From NCBI GenBank assembly GCA_018883865.1, contig JAHLFI010000100.1, forward strand, positions 1 to 44,068: a stretch of 44,068 bases of DNA, given 5' to 3'. The DNA is from Candidatus Oceanisphaera merdipullorum (GTDB lineage: Bacteria > Pseudomonadota > Gammaproteobacteria > Enterobacterales > Aeromonadaceae). The translations under genes and the position numbers were made by a program. The notes below the pieces were generated by a model. The model did not search any database, was not told the origin of the DNA, and saw nothing but the letters and a program-made list of their open reading frames with translations. Positions 10,453 to 43,370 of this stretch are shown piece by piece (the stretch's first letter is position 1; the number at the start of each line of letters is the position of its first letter).

Positions 10453-11436
10453 CTATTGCCAAAAAGGATCGGTGAACCAATCTATAGGCAATCCCATGGC
10501 CCGATTTGATATTTCAGGAAACTCTTGAAACATTTCGAACAATCGTTGGTGCCATAGAGTGTTAGGACTCACCTGACGCATTAAATGATGTAAGGCAGCC
10601 AGCACAACGGCGATCCGAGTATGCTGCACTGGTTTACTAAGATGACTAGGCCAACTGAAGTTAGTGCTTTTAGGCAACTCTGGCTTGATGCCTAACTCTC
10701 GATTCCAAAGACGCGAATGATGGGCACAGATATTACGCACCGTCGTTAAGGTGTGGAGCCAAGAGGCCAGTAATGGAGCAGATACGGCAAGCTCTTTCGC
10801 TATTTTTTTCTTATCGCTATCTTTAGCTAGACCTTTATAGAGGTGAGAAAGCTCACCTAAGGTTAATTCTTCTAACATTGCCCATCCGGGCATTAACGTA
10901 GGCTCTTCATAGGTCAACGAATAATGACGCGCATAGCTTTCTTGAGCTCTTTTTTGCTGCAGCAATCCACGCTTTTCAACGTCAGAGTGAACAATTCGCT
11001 TTATTTCCTGCTGATAGTCTTGCTTAGCTTTCTGTTGCTTTTTTTCGATTGAGTTAAGTAACCGAGCATGATCATAGTGATCTTTGAAAAGATTTCTGTC
11101 GAGGTACCAATGCGAACCATAAACTGGGCCGAGCTGATTAGAGAGTGTGGCTCTTACAGCGACTTCAACTCTCCCAATAGCATCAATAACCAAGAGTCGT
11201 AGGCGGCGATCAAAATCATAAAGACGACTGAGCTGACGAAAATTAGCGTCAGGTCTAAATAAATGTTTAGGATCATTTGCAACCTGAAATGGTCGCATGT
11301 AAGGCGTTAAGCGGAAAAAGCTGACCGCTTCAAGGAACAACGTAGCACGCGCTTCATCTTGTATTCTTAGGCCTCTCGTTTTAAGAAGTTGCAGCTGCTC
11401 CCCTACTGTAATCGCAGGCTTGGCAAAAGGCTTCAT
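10453..11436 (-). CDS. Abi_2 / AbiF-type abortive-infection HEPN protein
   Basis: The 327-residue protein starts MKPFAKPAITVGEQLQLL, with GGAGAG just upstream. An upstream ATG in the same frame at 11475 falls inside the small-RNA terminator stem and is rejected. The family is recognised from the N-terminal Q-L-x-L-L-x-x-R-G-L block, FFRLTPYMRPF, YDFDRRLRLLVIDAIGRVEVAVR, and RNICAHHSRLWNR at about residue 233. This last is an R-x4-H HEPN ribonuclease motif. Abi_2 (AbiD/AbiF) proteins abort phage infection, presumably by RNA cleavage. A structured small RNA with its own promoter and terminator lies directly upstream on the same strand, as reported for AbiF loci, so this could be a toxin controlled by an RNA antitoxin. 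Confidence 0.85.
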   Translation of the reverse strand: MKPFAKPAITVGEQLQLLKTRGLRIQDEARATLFLEAVSFFRLTPYMRPFQVANDPKHLFRPDANFRQLSRLYDFDRRLRLLVIDAIGRVEVAVRATLSNQLGPVYGSHWYLDRNLFKDHYDHARLLNSIEKKQQKAKQDYQQEIKRIVHSDVEKRGLLQQKRAQESYARHYSLTYEEPTLMPGWAMLEELTLGELSHLYKGLAKDSDKKKIAKELAVSAPLLASWLHTLTTVRNICAHHSRLWNRELGIKPELPKSTNFSWPSHLSKPVQHTRIAVVLAALHHLMRQVSPNTLWHQRLFEMFQEFPEISNRAMGLPIDWFTDPFWQ

Positions 11437-11462
11437 ATCTCTCCGCACGAAGAAAAGGCAAT

Positions 11463-11522
11463 AAAAAACCCGCACGATTTGAGCGTGACTACCGAGGCAG
11501 ACATAGGCTTGGCGGGTATATT
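11463..11522 (-). ncRNA. Candidate AbiF-associated small RNA
   Basis: Read on the minus strand, an RNA of about 60 nt would start near 11522 and end in T6. Its frame is an outer stem ACCCGC (11512-11517) with GCGGGT (11468-11473). Inside are a small hairpin CTGC-CTCG-GTAG and a second hairpin CACG/CGTG with a 7-nt loop. The outer stem followed by TTTTTT acts as the terminator. A promoter with 17-bp spacing lies at 11530-11558. The RNA ends 26 nt before the Abi start codon. Position and architecture fit the abiF-type RNA motif known from comparative genomics; a covariance-model match was not run. Confidence 0.65.
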
Positions 11523-11529
11523 GCTAACG

Positions 11530-11558
11530 ATATTAGGAGAATTTTATCCTAAGGGCAA
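11530..11558 (-). promoter_or_regulatory. Sigma-70 promoter of the small RNA / Abi gene
   Basis: On the minus strand TTGCCC (11553-11558), a 17-bp spacer, then TAATAT (11530-11535). Predicted transcription starts near 11522, just before the structured RNA. Confidence 0.6.
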
Positions 11559-14651: not shown

Positions 14652-14889
14652 GTCGGATGAAGGTCTGCTCCTCCGACGCGCCTAAATAAGGCCACTCATC
14701 ATTTCAGCCCACTGCGAACATTCACTGGATGTTCGGTTAGGCTGAAATGATTCGTCTCGGCGAGACGAGCTCGCCCCATGCACGCTCAGCACATAACATC
14801 TGACCGCCAAGGATGGCGGGAATGCCGAAATGGCAGGAGCACTTTTCGGCCCTGTTATGTGCTGGTCGATTGAGCAGAACCCTTCATCC
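14652..14889. repeat. Large multi-hairpin intergenic element (left flank of the AT-rich island)
   Basis: A closing stem joins GGATGAAGG (14655-14663) with CCTTCATCC (14881-14889), extended by CTGCTC/GAGCAG. Inside are an arm of ATCATTTCAGCC (14698-14709) with GGCTGAAATGAT (14740-14751) topped by GAACAT/ATGTTC; a short CGTCTC/GAGACG hairpin (14753-14767); and an arm AGCACATAACA (14788-14798) with TGTTATGTGCT (14853-14863) that holds CCGCC/GGCGG and GCCGAAA/TTTCGGC. No gene was recognised here. It could be a dispersed palindromic repeat, a MITE-like element or a structured RNA. Confidence 0.7.
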
Positions 14890-15352
14890 TCTTTGATGCT
14901 ATGAAGTAATTTGCTAGTGCTATTTACAGATAAGCAGAACCTATCGCCGCAATACCCTGATAACACTCGCCCTACATTGGCCAGCGTTCTAATGACGAGT
15001 TTATGGCATACGATGTGAAGCTACTTACTCGGACGAATGGTAAACTTGCGCATAGTTGACAATCCGAGATTCTAAGCTTCAGATGCTTCCTGTAGACCAA
15101 AGGAGTAACTTTGCTTACAATAACCACCGATTTTTTCACTCTATTACGGTCTTAACATGGCACAAATCAATGTATTAAATAAGATCGACATTTGCTCCAT
15201 GAGTTCTGTTTACATGATACATTTATATAATTCATGGGTAACCTCGCTAATCGAAAGTTTTAAACCTGCTAATTTAAAAAATTATAGCAAAACTTAACTT
15301 ATATATTATAATTCACTGAAAATTCTATAAATATTTTAGAGGAGAGCTTGAG
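14890..15352. other. Non-coding stretch before the island nuclease gene
   Basis: No convincing gene was found. Base composition drops to AT-rich over the last 200 bp. A TATAAT at 15307-15312 could be the -10 of the next gene, but no matching -35 was seen. Confidence 0.5.
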
Positions 15353-16117
15353 ATGGAAAAAGCTAACGCTGAAAGATTATTAGAAACAGAAATAAAATCA
15401 CTAGTACTTACTCACTTAATTACCAAGGGAATTCTGACCTCTACTGATACTATTTTCAATGAATTCACAGTCGACAACGCTTCTCGCAGGGTTGACTTGG
15501 CTATTACCAAAGGAAATGAACTGTGGGCCTTTGAAATAAAAAGTGAGGCCGATACACTAGTCAGACTTAAGGGGCAAATAGAAACTTATTCAAAATATTT
15601 TGATAAGGTTTTTGTTATTGTCGCAAGTAAGCATACCGAGTCAGCACTTAAATTTGTTTCTAAATCTATAGCTCTTTGGGAAATAAACGGAAAAGAATTA
15701 ATAATAAAACAAAAAGGTCAAAAGAAATTAATAAGAAACCCAAGCAGCTTTATTGACATGATGAACATCCCTGACCTAGTAAAAGTAGCAAATAACAATG
15801 GATTGAAACTTAAATCTAAACGAAGGGAAGACTTAGTAAATGTTTTAATAAAAATAAATGCTAGTATATTAAGAAAAGCCGCCTTAAAAGCAATAATTAA
15901 TAAGTATCACTTCTCTTCAAAAGTTTTTTTCGATCGAGTAATTGACCGCACGATAACATCAGATGACATAAGCCTATTAAGTAGATTCAAGATACAGAAT
16001 AAAAAGAGCTTAATAGAGGCTGACAATATCGATGACATTATCAATAGCATCAATAAAATTGTATTTGATCAGCACTCAGTAGTTAATAAGAAAAATTTTG
16101 AACTATCAAGGATATAA
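15353..16117 (+). CDS. sce7726-family protein, PD-(D/E)XK nuclease-like
   Basis: The 254-residue protein starts with AGGAG 9 bp upstream. The N-terminal half has the order seen in restriction-like nucleases: E13, D48 in RRVDLAI, E61-x-K63 in FEIKSEADTL, and Q75-x3-Y79 in GQIETYSKYF. It then follows the sce7726 pattern (DKVFVIVASKH, later EINGKELIIK). The C-terminal half is lysine-rich and helical with no recognised domain. The gene is markedly AT-rich with AGA/ATA/AAA codons unlike its neighbours, which points to horizontal transfer. It converges on the beta-protein operon with a 12-bp gap. sce7726 genes are often found in defence or mobile regions; the biochemical role is not known. Confidence 0.75.
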   Translation: MEKANAERLLETEIKSLVLTHLITKGILTSTDTIFNEFTVDNASRRVDLAITKGNELWAFEIKSEADTLVRLKGQIETYSKYFDKVFVIVASKHTESALKFVSKSIALWEINGKELIIKQKGQKKLIRNPSSFIDMMNIPDLVKVANNNGLKLKSKRREDLVNVLIKINASILRKAALKAIINKYHFSSKVFFDRVIDRTITSDDISLLSRFKIQNKKSLIEADNIDDIINSINKIVFDQHSVVNKKNFELSRI

Positions 16118-16129
16118 CTCATCTTCTTT

Positions 16130-17284
16130 TTAATCGTTCCAATCTTCGTCTGTGTCCAGATCTTCTATAACATCACTATAATGAAGTTGCTGGTAGAGGT
16201 GTAAATTTATTCTTACTGCAGTCGCTCTATTTGGTGAAGTTATTCCATAAACATCCCCTTCTGCAGTTTTTTCAATCATCTGAATCCCCCATAACTTAAG
16301 CTCCTCAATCCAGTAATCACTATTCATCATCTCTACAGCAGCGTCTTGATAAAGTTTTTCTTTTTCTCCTAGAGCTATATTTCGAGGGTCGTCAAATTCT
16401 TTACGAATAAAACGCCAATCATTCTTTAATGCATAGTCTATCCGAGGAGGAGGAACCGAACCGCCGCCACTAATTTTAGATGCTCTCGCGCCACCTCTAT
16501 CAGAATAGAGCATAGTAATGTTAGCAGAACAATGTTTGAATGTTCTATTAAAAAGTAGCCTCTCATATATAGGAATTTCCCCTCGATATGAGCCTGCAAA
16601 GCTTGATGGAAAAGAAGCAGATGAAATAGAAAAAATAGCTTTAGGAAAAATACGATGCATACTTTCTATTAGTTTTGCGTGCTTGTCTCCTTCTAGTGTT
16701 TCAACTCTACCAACATCTTCATGATCGAAAATAAACAATAATTGATTTATTTTTTTTCCTAAAATAGCTCTAGCCACAGTATTAAACAACTCAGCTGAAC
16801 TGCTTTTCATTTTAAACCTAACAACTAACCCTCGATTTAGAGAAGCCAATAAAACTATTTGTTCATCAAGTTCATTTATATCATAAAGTTGCAGTGTAGG
16901 TATTGCTTTAGGGGTGTCATTAATAAATTCGAACCAATTACGATAGCCATCATTAGGCATAAGCAGTTCATTAATTTGTTCATGAACTCGTCTAGGATAA
17001 TGTCCATTAAACTTATAATCTTTATTTTCGAAGAGAAATTCTTTATCAATATCAGCAATAAAACTTCGATCGCCAATAGATTTCTCTATTCTTTCTATAG
17101 AGCTGTTTAAATTTTTAGCTGTAGTCCACCCCTTCAAAGAAAAAAATGGTAATATTTTGTCTTTATCTTTACTTGGCAACTGCTCAAGAGCCGTCATCTC
17201 TGAAGGATTCAGAGCAAGAATGGGTGCATATTGAAAGATTAATTTTCCATCTATAAAAAACAAATTAGCCTCTATATTTTTCAA
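16130..17284 (-). CDS. Beta-family protein (PF14350-like)
   Basis: The protein is 384 residues. The opening YAPILALNPSEMTALEQLPS followed by KILPFFSLKGW matches the N-terminus of the 'beta family' proteins (usually YVPILK.K.GE..AL..L... I.PL.E). The central region (FIADIDKEFLF, LVVRFKMKSS, PRRVHEQINELL) and FASSYRGEIPIYERLLF-like segments also fit. The fold is probably a TIM-barrel-like domain. It overlaps the end of the ImmA/IrrE gene by 20 bp, so it is the last gene of a three-gene operon. It is AT-rich like the rest of the island. Function is unknown; such genes recur in phages and defence islands. Confidence 0.65.
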   Translation of the reverse strand: MKNIEANLFFIDGKLIFQYAPILALNPSEMTALEQLPSKDKDKILPFFSLKGWTTAKNLNSSIERIEKSIGDRSFIADIDKEFLFENKDYKFNGHYPRRVHEQINELLMPNDGYRNWFEFINDTPKAIPTLQLYDINELDEQIVLLASLNRGLVVRFKMKSSSAELFNTVARAILGKKINQLLFIFDHEDVGRVETLEGDKHAKLIESMHRIFPKAIFSISSASFPSSFAGSYRGEIPIYERLLFNRTFKHCSANITMLYSDRGGARASKISGGGSVPPPRIDYALKNDWRFIRKEFDDPRNIALGEKEKLYQDAAVEMMNSDYWIEELKLWGIQMIEKTAEGDVYGITSPNRATAVRINLHLYQQLHYSDVIEDLDTDEDWND

Positions 17285-17765
17285 GTTGATATTTTAAAGA
17301 TGTTAGTGAAACCTCAAAATCTTCTGCAAGTTTTTCATATAACACTTCTCCTTTGATTTCTATCTCACACTCCTTCTTATGCATGGCTAACAAATGCATT
17401 GGCATAAGAATATCTGCGGCTAAACTATTAGCTTCAGACTCAATAGACGAAGACAACTTTGAACGAAATAACGCATCATCAGTTATACCATCACCGATAT
17501 ACTTGCGGTGTAGTAAATAATGAGAAATCTCATGGGCCAGAGTAAATCTCTGCCTATATTTCACGTCATGCCTATTAACTCGAATAACAATTTCACCACA
17601 TGTTTCTTTTATTTCACCAGAAATATTACCCGGTAATGTTGAAGACTTTACTATCAACCCGAAATCTTTCGCAATAGCACCCACCTTTATAGGAAAAGTG
17701 AATTGATGAGCTTTTATTATTGAAACTTGCTCATCAGTGAGCTTGCGCCATTCTTTTGAAGTCAT
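17265..17765 (-). CDS. ImmA/IrrE-family metallopeptidase
   Basis: The protein is 166 residues with the zinc motif HEISH at 78-82 and the third-ligand region ESEANSLAADILMP at 109-122 (E111), the ImmA/IrrE (COG2856) signature. No helix-turn-helix domain precedes it and no repressor gene is adjacent, so its substrate is not obvious. ImmA cleaves the ImmR repressor of ICEBs1, and IrrE cleaves DdrO on DNA damage. Its ATG overlaps the stop of the upstream membrane-protein gene by 4 bp, and its own end overlaps the beta-protein gene. It is therefore tightly coupled to both and a likely proteolytic switch for this system. Confidence 0.88.
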   Translation of the reverse strand: MTSKEWRKLTDEQVSIIKAHQFTFPIKVGAIAKDFGLIVKSSTLPGNISGEIKETCGEIVIRVNRHDVKYRQRFTLAHEISHYLLHRKYIGDGITDDALFRSKLSSSIESEANSLAADILMPMHLLAMHKKECEIEIKGEVLYEKLAEDFEVSLTSLKYQLEKYRG

Positions 17766-18505
17766 GATTTACCACCTTGCTTCTTGATATTATCAAGATT
17801 TTCAATAAGATCGTCCCAATCGATAGACTCATCTAACTCAGACCAATTTATATCTTTCTCATCACTTTTATTTCTTAAGATAAAAGTATCTACTACGTCT
17901 TCTAAATGTTTTGTAAATCTACCTTCATCAATAAGCTCTTTCAACTTACATTTAACTACATCATCTATTTTATTCTCTGTCGTTTCTCCAGCAACTTTTT
18001 CAGCAACATTTCTAGCACTACTTTCCGTTTTACTTATTATATTTTTATAACCCCAAAATGAAAGAACTGCGATTACAATACCAATAATTGTAATCAGAAC
18101 GGACACACTAGTAATAGCTATAGCTGCAAAATCAGCATAAGTGAAATAACTTTGATTTTTATATAATGCATCTACTCTTTCTTTTAAATTTGAACCATCA
18201 TTACTAGAATAAATATTATTTTCATTAACTAGATAGTCTTGAGCAATGGTTTCATTAAGCAAAGCAATACTTTTCAATACTTCCACATGCAGTTCTTTAT
18301 ATTTATCGCTAAAAGCATGGTCCGATGTAGATAACTGAACGGTTGTGTTAGCCAAAGTATCAAGAGATTCTGAAATAGATGTTAATGGACCAATAAAATC
18401 ATTGTCGATACCGTCTTGCAAAAACGCTTTGCTGTAGCTAAGCTCAGAAGCATAAGTAGGTACAGACAAAAATAATACAACCATAATTTTTACGAAAATT
18501 TTCAC
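17762..18505 (-). CDS. Single-pass membrane protein of the island operon
   Basis: The protein is 247 residues from the GTG at 18505 (AGGAA 7 bp upstream). A TTG at 18526 would add seven residues and hide this ribosome site. A signal peptide ends near VPTYAS. About 105 residues of helical periplasmic domain follow, then one transmembrane helix (FAAIAITSVSVLITIIGIVI, around residue 130), and a cytoplasmic tail of about 90 residues that is lysine-rich near the membrane and acidic at the end (INWSELDESIDWDDLIENLD). The topology is that of a sensor or signalling anchor. No family was recognised. It is first in the operon with ImmA/IrrE and the beta protein. Confidence 0.75.
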   Translation of the reverse strand: MKIFVKIMVVLFLSVPTYASELSYSKAFLQDGIDNDFIGPLTSISESLDTLANTTVQLSTSDHAFSDKYKELHVEVLKSIALLNETIAQDYLVNENNIYSSNDGSNLKERVDALYKNQSYFTYADFAAIAITSVSVLITIIGIVIAVLSFWGYKNIISKTESSARNVAEKVAGETTENKIDDVVKCKLKELIDEGRFTKHLEDVVDTFILRNKSDEKDINWSELDESIDWDDLIENLDNIKKQGGKS

Positions 18506-18816
18506 ACTGCGGTTCCTAGCGGTCAAATATTATTATTTATAGTACAGCATAAATAACCTTTCTCTATCCATTATTCTGTACTTATTCATTCCACTTGACA
18601 ACCACTATAAGTTTTAAAATTAAATTATCTGAAATATTAATCCACGATAAATTTATCCTTATTTTACTGCCATACGCTCTACAGTACACATCACTGCTAA
18701 ATTATGAATTAATAGCATTATCCCATTAATAGGAAATAGGACTGCACCAACAAGCCCTCCCTGTTAGTTGGCCACCTTTGGCTTTTAGACCCCACCGACA
18801 ACTCCATAGCGATGAG
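18506..18816. other. Non-coding upstream region of the island operon
   Basis: This AT-rich stretch contains no gene. It should hold the promoter for the minus-strand operon, but no convincing -35/-10 pair could be fixed. It ends at the second multi-hairpin element. Confidence 0.5.
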
Positions 18817-41297: not shown

Positions 41298-43370
41298 ATG
41301 AATCTGGAGAAGATGTCGCTCAGTCTGCTCAAGGGCGTAGGCAATAAGATGTTAGAAAAGCTGCAACGGCTCGGTTTGAGCACGGTGCAAGATTTGCTAT
41401 TCCATCTGCCGCTGCGCTACGAAGACCGCACCCAAGTTCACGCCATAGGCGACTTAATGCCCGGCATGCACGTGTCTGTGATTGGTGAGATCGTCGACAG
41501 CAACATTAGCTATGGCCGCAAGCGCATGTTGTTATGCCGCATGCGCGACGATAGCGGCAGCCTGACGCTGCGCTTTTTCAACTTTGCCGCGGCCCAAATG
41601 AGCAACCTGACCGCCGGCACTAAAATTCGCGCCTTCGGCGAAATTCGCCCGGGTCAGCATGGCCTTGAAATTATTCACCCCGAATACAGCCTGCAGCTGG
41701 GCGATCTGGCGATGACGGGCGAAGCTAATCTGACGCCCGTTTATGGCGCGACCGAAGGCTTGCGCCAAATTACCCTGCGCCAACTCACCGATCAAGCGCT
41801 GGCGTTACTTGCGCAAACGCCATTACAAGAATGGTTACCCAGCGGCTTATATGACAAACAAATTAGCTTAAATGAAGCGCTGCAGTTATTGCATCGCCCA
41901 CCGGCAGGTGTGGATCTATTCACCCTAGAGCAAGGCACACATCCTGCTCAACAACGGCTGATCATGGAGGAGCTACTGGCTCATAATCTTTCTGTACTTA
42001 AGGTGCGAGAGCAAAGCCAGGCTCATCAGGCGCGGAGCATGCGCTACCCCGAGCAACTCATTAGCGATTTTTTAGCACAACTGCCTTTTACGCCTACGAA
42101 TGCCCAGCAAAGAGTCGTAGCAGAAATTGCCAGCGACTTAGCCAAACCAATACCCATGATGCGTCTAGTACAAGGTGACGTGGGCTCAGGTAAAACGCTA
42201 GTGGCGGCATTGGCCGCACTGCAGGTTATAGGTAATCAGGGCCAAGTCGCGCTCATGGCGCCCACCGAGTTGTTAGCCGAACAACACACCAATAATTTTG
42301 CCGCTTGGTTGGCGCCATTAGGCATTCAAGTGGGTTGGCTGGCCGGCAAGGTAAAAGGCAAAGCGCGCGCCGAACAGCTAGCGCGCTTAGCCAGTGGCGA
42401 GTTGGGCATGATAGTCGGCACCCATGCACTGTTTCAGGAACAAGTACAATTTGATGCACTGGAACTGGTGATTATTGATGAGCAACATCGTTTTGGTGTG
42501 CATCAGCGCTTGGCACTGCGTGAAAAAGGCAGCCAAGGGGACTTTTACCCACACCAATTGATCATGACCGCCACCCCCATACCGCGCACCTTGGCCATGA
42601 CCGCCTATGCAGATCTCGACACCTCAATTATCGATGAACTGCCGCCAGGTCGTACCCCCGTTACTACCGTCGCCATGCCCGATACCCGACGCGAAGACAT
42701 CGTCGCTCGGGTACGCCAAGTGTGTCGCGAACAAGGCCGACAAGCCTATTGGGTGTGCACCCTGATTGATGAGTCGGAAGTATTAGAATGCCAAGCCGCT
42801 GAAGACACAGCCACCGAGCTCACCGCGCAATTGCCCGAATTAAAAGTAGGCCTAGTACATGGCCGTATGAAGCCCGCAGAAAAGTTAACAGTAATGGCTG
42901 ACTTTAAGGCCGGCAAGATTGACTTGTTAGTGGCGACCACCGTCATAGAAGTCGGCGTAGACGTACCTAATGCTTCTTTGATGATCATCGAAAACCCCGA
43001 GCGTTTAGGCTTGGCGCAACTGCACCAATTGCGTGGCCGCGTCGGCCGAGGCGCGGTCGCTTCCCACTGCGTGCTCTTGTATCACGCACCCTTAACTAAA
43101 ACCGCTGGCCAACGCTTGGGCGTGCTGCGCGACACCAACGACGGCTTTATTATTGCCCAGAAAGACTTAGAAATTCGCGGTCCCGGCGAGCTTTTAGGCA
43201 CCAAACAAACCGGCCTCACCGACTTAAAAATTGCCGACCTAATACGCGACCAACATCTATTACCAGAAATCCAACGCCTCGCCCGCTATTTAGCCGACAA
43301 ACATCCAGAAATCACGGCACCGCTGATCCGCCGCTGGCTCGGTGAAAAAGAACATTATGGGAAGGTTTAG
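41298..43370 (+). CDS. recG: ATP-dependent DNA helicase RecG
   Basis: The protein is 690 residues (E. coli 693). The N-terminal wedge/OB domain (LPLRYEDRTQ, LRFFNFAAAQMSNL) precedes two RecA-like domains: Walker A GDVGSGKT near 296, the DEQH box in IIDEQHRFGVHQR, motif III TATPIPRTLAM, and motifs V/VI (VATTVIEVGVDVPNA, QLRGRVGRG). The C-terminal TRG translocation motif region (KDLEIRGPGELLG) is intact. It reverses stalled replication forks and processes branched DNA. The sequence is very close to the enterobacterial protein. Confidence 0.98.
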   Translation: MNLEKMSLSLLKGVGNKMLEKLQRLGLSTVQDLLFHLPLRYEDRTQVHAIGDLMPGMHVSVIGEIVDSNISYGRKRMLLCRMRDDSGSLTLRFFNFAAAQMSNLTAGTKIRAFGEIRPGQHGLEIIHPEYSLQLGDLAMTGEANLTPVYGATEGLRQITLRQLTDQALALLAQTPLQEWLPSGLYDKQISLNEALQLLHRPPAGVDLFTLEQGTHPAQQRLIMEELLAHNLSVLKVREQSQAHQARSMRYPEQLISDFLAQLPFTPTNAQQRVVAEIASDLAKPIPMMRLVQGDVGSGKTLVAALAALQVIGNQGQVALMAPTELLAEQHTNNFAAWLAPLGIQVGWLAGKVKGKARAEQLARLASGELGMIVGTHALFQEQVQFDALELVIIDEQHRFGVHQRLALREKGSQGDFYPHQLIMTATPIPRTLAMTAYADLDTSIIDELPPGRTPVTTVAMPDTRREDIVARVRQVCREQGRQAYWVCTLIDESEVLECQAAEDTATELTAQLPELKVGLVHGRMKPAEKLTVMADFKAGKIDLLVATTVIEVGVDVPNASLMIIENPERLGLAQLHQLRGRVGRGAVASHCVLLYHAPLTKTAGQRLGVLRDTNDGFIIAQKDLEIRGPGELLGTKQTGLTDLKIADLIRDQHLLPEIQRLARYLADKHPEITAPLIRRWLGEKEHYGKV

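Follow-up and report, generated by a model that had tools for sequence, protein, structure and literature searches.

An AbiF toxin gene with a single-motif abiF-type RNA in Candidatus Oceanisphaera merdipullorum, and related phage RNAs that may mimic the antitoxin

The AbiF gene and the RNA before it

The window, the whole stretch of 44,068 nucleotides analysed here (contig JAHLFI010000100.1 of Candidatus Oceanisphaera merdipullorum), carries on its minus strand a small structured RNA followed by a toxin gene, with one promoter-like site before the RNA, an order that, by sequence, would fit a type III toxin-antitoxin system. The gene (10453..11436) codes for a predicted HEPN ribonuclease toxin of the AbiF/Abi_2 type, 327 aa long and with an RNxxxH motif, recognised through PF07751, PADLOC, the sequence of 8VZ6 and the protein alignment A2. 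Its product reaches 171.4 bits with PF07751 (Abi_2; curated cut-off 25.6) and 217 bits with the PADLOC AbiD profile. Its sole PDB sequence match at E 0.01 is 8VZ6 (E 3e-42, both halves matched and the whole length aligned), which represents PbAbiF with its RNA (PMC12737573; PMC12373285). The RNxxxH motif occupies residues 234-239, with R234 and N235 invariant and H239 nearly so among the 17 sequences of A2; the preliminary description, which had recognised an Abi_2/AbiF protein with an R-x4-H motif from the letters of the DNA, was thus right on this point. The genome holds one Abi_2 gene.

Directly upstream lies an abiF-type antitoxin RNA with a conserved segment of 63 nt (11462..11524, minus strand), identified by its match to the Rfam family RF03085, by the RNA alignment A1 and by covariation. 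The 5′ arm of its closing stem, CCCGCC (11511..11516), pairs with 11475 and 11473-11469, and these pairs change by compensation in the phage copies described below; the 3′ arm (11469..11475) consists of a G, a bulged U and GCGGG, as defined by the Rfam alignment and covariation. Within the closing stem follow an inner stem AGC/GCU with a variable apical hairpin (11482..11509), helices 2 and 3 of which covary, and, on the 3′ side, the single-stranded CAAAUC (11476..11481) conserved in A1. The RNA has the shape of a single irregular hairpin made of closing stem, 3-bp inner stem, apical hairpin and 3′ bulge, so that the earlier picture of a roughly 60-nt RNA with a closing stem holds, but its "two internal hairpins" describe the inner part only loosely. 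The predicted fold has −16.7 kcal/mol (z −2.34) and was equalled in stability by 3 of 200 shuffled sequences. There is one RNA motif at this locus, without the tandem repeats of classical type III antitoxins. We discarded the reading of the RNA as a CRISPR-like guide, since inspection of A1 revealed neither a variable spacer nor an array.

The Rfam search proposed in the preliminary description did find the abiF model (cmscan, 11516-11468 on the minus strand), with all 28 aligned consensus positions identical and no broken pair marked, but at 34.6 bits (E 0.012 when the whole window is searched, 1e-4 when the search covers 371 bases) the match stays below the curated gathering cut-off of 37 bits, and we therefore call the RNA abiF-type and not a formal member of RF03085. 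Nine apical positions of the model are skipped, their place being taken by a 20-nt stretch with a longer hairpin. At E 0.001 this RNA is the sole RF03085 match in its genome, and none of 14 control genomes has one.

The RNA is preceded by a −35-like hexamer TTGCCC (11553..11558), for which comparable pairs exist in homologues, and, after a 17-nt spacer, by a −10-like hexamer TAATAT (11530..11535), which would place the transcription start near 11523. The 17-bp spacing claimed for this promoter is indeed there, yet the two hexamers match the consensus at 8 of 12 positions and are absent from the list of a consensus promoter scan. Within the leaders of the window and 25 homologues, where the −10 was sought 8-24 nt from the CCCG of the closing stem, 20 of 26 have their best −10 ending 13 nt ahead of this CCCG, 17 of 26 have a spacer of 17, and the mean best promoter score is 7.85 versus 6.57 after mononucleotide shuffling (sd of the set mean 0.17). 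Likewise, the T6 terminator of the preliminary description is present as a tract immediately after the closing stem (11463..11468), but a simple terminator scan that permits loops of 3-8 does not list stem and tract. As neither element is listed by the generic scans, we used conservation across homologues instead of these as support. By its position, the terminator-like tract would set the ratio of RNA to mRNA. The ribosome-binding site GGAGAG (11439..11444) and the ATG follow, the latter 26 nt from T6 as first described. Equally correct was the warning about a naive start call: the mechanical ORF (340 aa) begins at GTG 11475, within the RNA.

Conservation and history of the unit

The RNA is a regular companion of this type of gene, as the preliminary description had stated for AbiF genes in general. 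It occurs just upstream in 30 of 32 homologous loci, which were confirmed by tblastn in genome contigs, mostly of Pseudomonas and other gammaproteobacteria, with six from distant groups; 29 of these 30 were used to build the covariance model R1 and so match it by construction, the RNA left outside the training set (L046) scoring 26.8 bits. The two loci without it are a remote one (L049) and a close homologue from Vreelandella (L041). At the latter, the reading of the DNA (L041:5001-5950) reveals a Vreelandella andesensis AbiF pseudogene that is frameshifted and has lost its start and catalytic Arg along with the RNA, a single case in which antitoxin and toxin appear to have been lost together.

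Covariation, whose absence the first description had named as grounds for refutation, is also seen. In the 26 distinct sequences of A1, 95.0% of the cells are paired (86.0 when shuffled), 7 of 16 pairs are changed on both sides (3.9 in shuffles) and the covariation score is 0.234 versus 0.101. All but one of the six closing pairs are invariant here.

At class level, Abi_2 is present in 28 of 274 genomes, and 19 of the 29 Abi_2 loci given to R1 have the RNA just upstream, all of them among the 24 full-length ones (domain of at least 165 bits); before the remaining five full-length genes R1 detected no RNA. Neither R1 nor Rfam detected one at L007-L011, five more remote Abi_2 genes from relatives of this genome. 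Their products are 33-38% identical to the window protein across the matched parts; the RNAs there may have diverged, or else there are Abi_2 genes that do without one. Seven chosen plasmid AbiF loci all have the RNA upstream (30.5-70.3 bits). At L069 a single Abi_2 gene is preceded by two tandem abiF RNA motifs, at 2177-2227 (52.0 bits) and 2330-2387 (25.9 bits), an arrangement like that of RCd22, the antitoxin RNA of Clostridioides difficile, and the RNA of a Nitrosococcus plasmid (L265:1398-1475) has an apical hairpin with an apparent internal duplication. A blastn survey of plasmids with the window RNA was abandoned as too insensitive, having returned two records.

One might regard such an RNA simply as a cis-acting attenuator or leader of the abiF mRNA that never acts in trans. 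Its location between promoter and gene and its end in a stem with T6 agree with this, and control through a 5′UTR has been described for AbiD1 (PMC12373285). However, the internal parts that do not belong to the terminator (GCCU..., CAAAU) are conserved in A1 and the variable hairpin covaries, stand-alone copies of the RNA exist in phages, and RCd22 acts in trans (PMC12373285), so that we hold a leader function of this kind to be highly improbable.

In its own genome, the AbiF unit (1.3 kb) lies between a DUF2868 gene and a lipoprotein gene. The DUF2868 gene occurs in 5 of 23 same-genus genomes, and all four others that hold both flanks lack the unit and have the two genes side by side, with a gap of 181 nt at L269 versus about 1450 nt here; at L271 the lipoprotein frame is broken. 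In three of these four genomes (G005, G011, G018), a more distantly related Abi_2 gene is encoded at a different place. Because the best homologues come from Halopseudomonas and a Nitrosococcus plasmid (69%), the unit was probably gained horizontally.

Two other parts of the window deserve mention. An AT-rich block 4 kb from the AbiF unit (14682-18530; GC 0.33 at 15300-18530 versus 0.48 for the window) holds a PADLOC cll-like gene (15353-16117), a Beta protein (16130-17284), an ImmA/IrrE peptidase (17265-17765) and a further frame (17762-18526), and may be a PD-Lambda-2-like defence cassette. An Rfam match to Ysr141 (42363-42109, 86.9 bits, cut-off 196) lies antisense to a long frame resembling recG (41298-43370) and probably reflects coding conservation.

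A predicted RNA-regulated toxin

Taken together, the Rfam match just under its cut-off, the covariation, the linkage of RNA and Abi_2 in most close homologues and the full-length homology to 8VZ6 bear out the proposal of an RNA-regulated AbiF unit. The small structured RNA directly 5′ of the gene, also part of that proposal, stands on the RF03085 match, the covariation and the short distance to the ATG. We conclude that the locus very probably encodes a one-gene AbiF toxin with an RNA antitoxin. Its role in abortive infection would follow from characterised relatives (PMC12373285).

Among these, the best comparison is AbiFCd-RCd22 of the C. difficile prophage phi027 which, according to PMC12373285, also has an Abi_2/AbiF HEPN toxin with RNxxxH, an abiF-type RNA directly upstream, a promoter before the RNA and a terminator between RNA and gene (terminator-like in the window). 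AbiFCd is toxic in C. difficile and E. coli, its Arg/His mutant is non-toxic, and RCd22 co-purifies with the protein, inhibits it by direct binding and acts both in cis and in trans (PMC12373285). RCd22 differs in its length of about 100-132 nt, its two abiF motifs, its separate terminator hairpin and its place in a prophage lysis module (PMC12373285), whereas the window has one motif of about 60 nt in which the closing stem doubles as the terminator-like stem, outside any prophage lysis module. PbAbiF-AbiFr (8VZ6) is alike in the whole length of the protein, and each PbAbiF monomer reportedly binds one RNA (PMC12737573). PbAbiF is inhibited by a single-stranded bulge of AbiFr, according to PMC12737573, and if the window CAAAUC corresponds to it in position, this is likely the segment that contacts the toxin. 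In comparison with PbAbiF, the window family has about 27-30 additional residues around positions 140-165.

By analogy with AbiFCd/RCd22 and PbAbiF for toxicity, termination, read-through and binding, and with type III systems for the trigger, the unit could work as follows. Transcription from the promoter before the RNA would mostly end at the closing stem and T6, yielding an abundant RNA of about 60 nt, and partial read-through would supply the toxin mRNA. One RNA would bind each AbiF monomer and block its HEPN RNase site. A phage infection that stops transcription or degrades the RNA would then free AbiF, which would cut RNA and halt growth.

The folds of the ToxIN protein and RNA are unrelated to those of AbiF and its RNA. 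ToxIN does share the arrangement of an RNA antitoxin before an RNase toxin (PMC3475682), and its structure differs from that of the AbiF-RNA complex (PMC12373285). The window RNA, with its single motif, also departs from the repeated make-up of RCd22 and of classical type III antitoxins. AbiF is a proposed ancestor of Cas13, and for this reason the window locus is a useful addition, an AbiF module described part by part whose antitoxin has one motif.

Stand-alone abiF-type RNAs in phages

Three overlapping pattern scans of IMG/VR viral contigs, with patterns that required a T tract, gave 4, 44 and 104 stretches, together 111 loci (L103-L213). We scored them with R2, a covariance model built solely from Abi_2-linked RNAs. 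Of the first 97 loci, 93 reach at least 44.6 bits; of the last 14 (L200-L213), 13 reach at least 45.1 bits and the remaining one 39.2. The Abi_2 profile found a gene in 6 of the 97 and in none of the 14. Strong RNA matches are therefore accompanied by no Abi_2 in the stretch examined in 100 of 106 contigs, a pattern that was unexpected and that the preliminary description had not noticed. Of these, 87 belong to the first 93 strong loci, and 74 of the 87 have at least 1000 nt downstream; the Abi_2-free RNAs score 44.6-69.6 bits. When 50 whole records were searched, the six known carriers were recovered and the other 44 gave one sub-cut-off match (15.7 bits); as IMG/VR records are mostly fragments, absence of Abi_2 from them is not absence from the virus. 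Clustering of the first 93 loci by their flanks produced 38 clusters, five with and 33 without Abi_2, the latter amounting to 32 lineages after two contig ends of the same sequence were merged (L200-L213 stand outside this clustering). Of 17 viral loci scanned with RF03085 itself, 10 reach its cut-off. Beside nine of the viral loci, ten chosen neighbour proteins could each be assigned to a PHROGs family (major head protein, portal, tail sheath, head closure, dUTPase, T4-like single-strand binding protein, two endolysins and, at two loci, the large terminase subunit), and at L127 the RNA lies just after the gene for the T4-like single-strand binding protein.

Bacteria offer a different picture. 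R2 has matches at 1e-4 in 66 of 398 Pseudomonadota genomes, and among 29 loci examined, one per genome (39.7-69.4 bits, apart from the window), 23 have Abi_2 beside the RNA, in three of them (L229, L237, L247) a weak or partial Abi_2 or one 1 kb off. The difference from the viral loci (6/93; Fisher 4e-14) or viral lineages (5/37; 7e-8) is large, although these values are limited by the different routes by which the two sets were found and by the non-independence of the loci. With one shared search pattern, the 398 genomes yielded three matches including the window, all beside Abi_2, versus 4 of 44 in viruses (p 0.002). Weak bacterial matches of around 30 bits, which frequently occur on both strands, resemble ordinary terminators and were left uncounted.

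The six bacterial loci without Abi_2 are L233, L234, L235, L238, L251 and L252. In two genomes, at L238 and, from the class-level set, at L087:1501-1552, the RNA comes at most about 20 nt before a type I restriction gene, hsdR. Both closing stems read CCGCC/GGCGG, and a further RNA copy lies at L087:1288-1340. At L251 the RNA lies beside a T7-like capsid-like frame identified by eye. At L082:1501-1552, an abiF-type RNA is followed after about 15 nt by a small ORF and then by a Fic gene; a type I N6-methylase gene lies upstream, an hsdS-like frame (by eye) downstream, and the genome has no listed Abi_2. At L081:168-230, near a contig end, a near-consensus abiF RNA (73 bits) is found about 190 nt before an AbiEi-like/AbiEii pair. 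These RNAs before hsdR, Fic and AbiE genes may represent exchanges of the gene behind the RNA, since complete AbiF modules also occur within restriction operons (L106, by eye; L261, L262 and L264, by annotation). The replacement of Abi_2 in such bacteria would suit the view that what the phage RNAs regulate, in phage or host, is not AbiF but, for instance, a host RNase or a phage gene. We consider this unlikely: no downstream gene is shared among the phage lineages whose neighbours were inspected, and AbiF is the experimentally known partner of the abiF RNA family in the literature examined.

Related RNAs are also found in named phages. A blastn search of a phage collection with four phage RNAs listed many records, from which we chose 15; searches with the viral RNAs L105 and L103 gave no match in this collection. 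Twelve of the 15 reach the RF03085 cut-off with the Rfam model: Acinetobacter Acj61 (58.0 bits), Synechococcus S-SZBM1 (55.7), S-CREM1 (L219; 52.2) and S-SRM01 (49.3), Aeromonas T7-Ah (50.7), PZL-Ah8 (50.1) and vB_AhaP_PT2 (44.4), Roseobacter CRP-143 (50.8), Salicola CGphi29 (50.1), and Mycobacterium Redno2 (47.5), Lolly9 (45.3) and Beem (39.7). R2 gives 32.7-61.7 bits for most of them and less for S-SRM01 (28.9), Redno2 (25.2), Beem (22.7) and Lolly9 (18.9), because their closing stems and tails differ. Bacillus SBSphiJ4 and Grass, which were BLAST half-matches (R2 14.9 and 14.8 bits, no Rfam match), were dropped, and Sulfurimonas SNW-1, at 33.3 bits with RF03085, stays outside the twelve. 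Abi_2 was detected in none of the 15 records, including all twelve at or above the cut-off, so that these twelve phages carry an antitoxin-like RNA without the toxin gene, as in the pseudo-ToxI type. The RNA lies between portal and scaffold genes in the Aeromonas T7-like phages and between scaffold and capsid genes in CRP-143. Plasmids of some hosts of the named phages, or of the kin of such hosts, contain AbiF (39 records in Acinetobacter, 20 in Rhodococcus, one each in Synechocystis and Mycolicibacterium), and every such locus looked at has the RNA before AbiF.

The secondary structure of the phage copies is maintained. Alignment A4 has 63 rows (62 distinct), from 51 orphan IMG/VR loci, 11 named phages (SNW-1 being included, Beem and Lolly9 left out) and one short doubtful extra match; its 97.7% of paired cells (86.3 shuffled) are to be read in the knowledge that it was fitted to the R2 structure, which biases toward pairing. 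Ten of 13 pairs are changed on both sides (4.2 shuffled), the covariation score is 0.224 (0.049 shuffled), and shifting the pair partners by 1 to 3 columns destroys the signal. Whereas A1 has an almost invariant closing stem, five of the six closing pairs vary by compensation in the phage copies: CCCGAC/GUCGGG in PT2 and T7-Ah, CCAGCC/GGCUGG in Acj61, CCCCC/GGGGG in S-CREM1 and S-SZBM1, and CCUCC/GGAGG in S-SRM01, all of which keep the core GCCUCU...AUGC. The pair at which Acj61 departs is also altered in Acinetobacter plasmid AbiF RNAs, where it is compensated differently.

These data bear on the possibility that the phage RNAs are strong intrinsic terminators that merely look alike. Many do lie close behind a gene end, the IMG/VR copies have a T tract, as the patterns demanded, and short palindromic terminator-like hairpins score near 30 bits with R2 on both strands. 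Against this, the Abi_2-free IMG/VR RNAs score well above that level, RF03085 itself recognises the twelve named phages at 39.7-58.0 bits, and the internal core is kept while the closing pairs change by compensation. Moreover, the T tract is missing in the cyanophage and mycobacteriophage copies, which are therefore not kept as terminators. An explanation by termination is thus very doubtful. The phage RNAs could also be functionless remnants of AbiF modules that have lost the toxin gene, as AbiF modules do occur in viral records (6 of 111 IMG/VR loci) and AbiF is found in C. difficile prophages (PMC12373285), but compensatory changes maintain their structure, they sit among core genes, between portal and scaffold genes or after the single-strand binding protein gene, and they recur in 32 flank lineages, which makes this origin quite unlikely.

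We find it most likely, by analogy with known systems, that the antitoxin RNA found without AbiF in many phages is a mimic that would neutralise host AbiF during infection. In its broadest form, in which unrelated phages (T7-like, T4-like, cyanophages, mycobacteriophages and some thirty uncultured lineages) would make a structure-conserved AbiF-antitoxin RNA that keeps host AbiF silent, this is a reading towards which we lean modestly. Phage PhiTE provides a precedent: its pseudo-ToxI is likewise an antitoxin-like RNA, which becomes effective after repeat expansion or recombination in escape mutants (PMC3475682), whereas the abiF-like RNAs are single, intact and spread over many lineages. Racrs, too, are stand-alone viral copies of the RNA of a defence ribonucleoprotein; they mimic CRISPR repeats and not the antitoxin of a toxin, and have been tested experimentally (PMC10651486), while the phage abiF RNAs are known from sequence. 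The available part of that paper leaves abiF unmentioned (PMC10651486). Among the 15 named records, S-CREM1 alone has an abiF annotation; in the accessible text of PMC9964418 its describers assign this sRNA no function beyond a high possibility of one during infection, and that single, functionally unassigned annotation compares with many phage lineages here, without Abi_2 and with compensatory changes. We found no proposal of abiF RNA as a phage antitoxin mimic in the open-licence literature searched. The phage copies, of more consequence than the window locus, raise a testable question about the function of abiF RNAs in phages. If the mimicry is real, the imitation of antitoxins by phage RNA, a device known from a single phage that acts against ToxIN, would be a general counter-defence, and one directed at the toxin family that presumably gave rise to Cas13.

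A tRNA gene adjoins the RNA in S-CREM1, S-SZBM1, S-SRM01 and Lolly9, lies within 300 nt of it in Redno2 and Beem, and is about 1.9 kb away in Acj61. A general association with tRNA arrays was rejected: a tRNA lies within 500 nt in 3 of 32 IMG/VR lineages, and when each lineage is represented by one member, the count of 2.5 versus 1.13 expected is not a significant excess (213 of 2000 random placements were as high). One contig with a stand-alone abiF RNA also encodes a permuted tmRNA (L164:8096-8364; RF04321, 93.6 bits).
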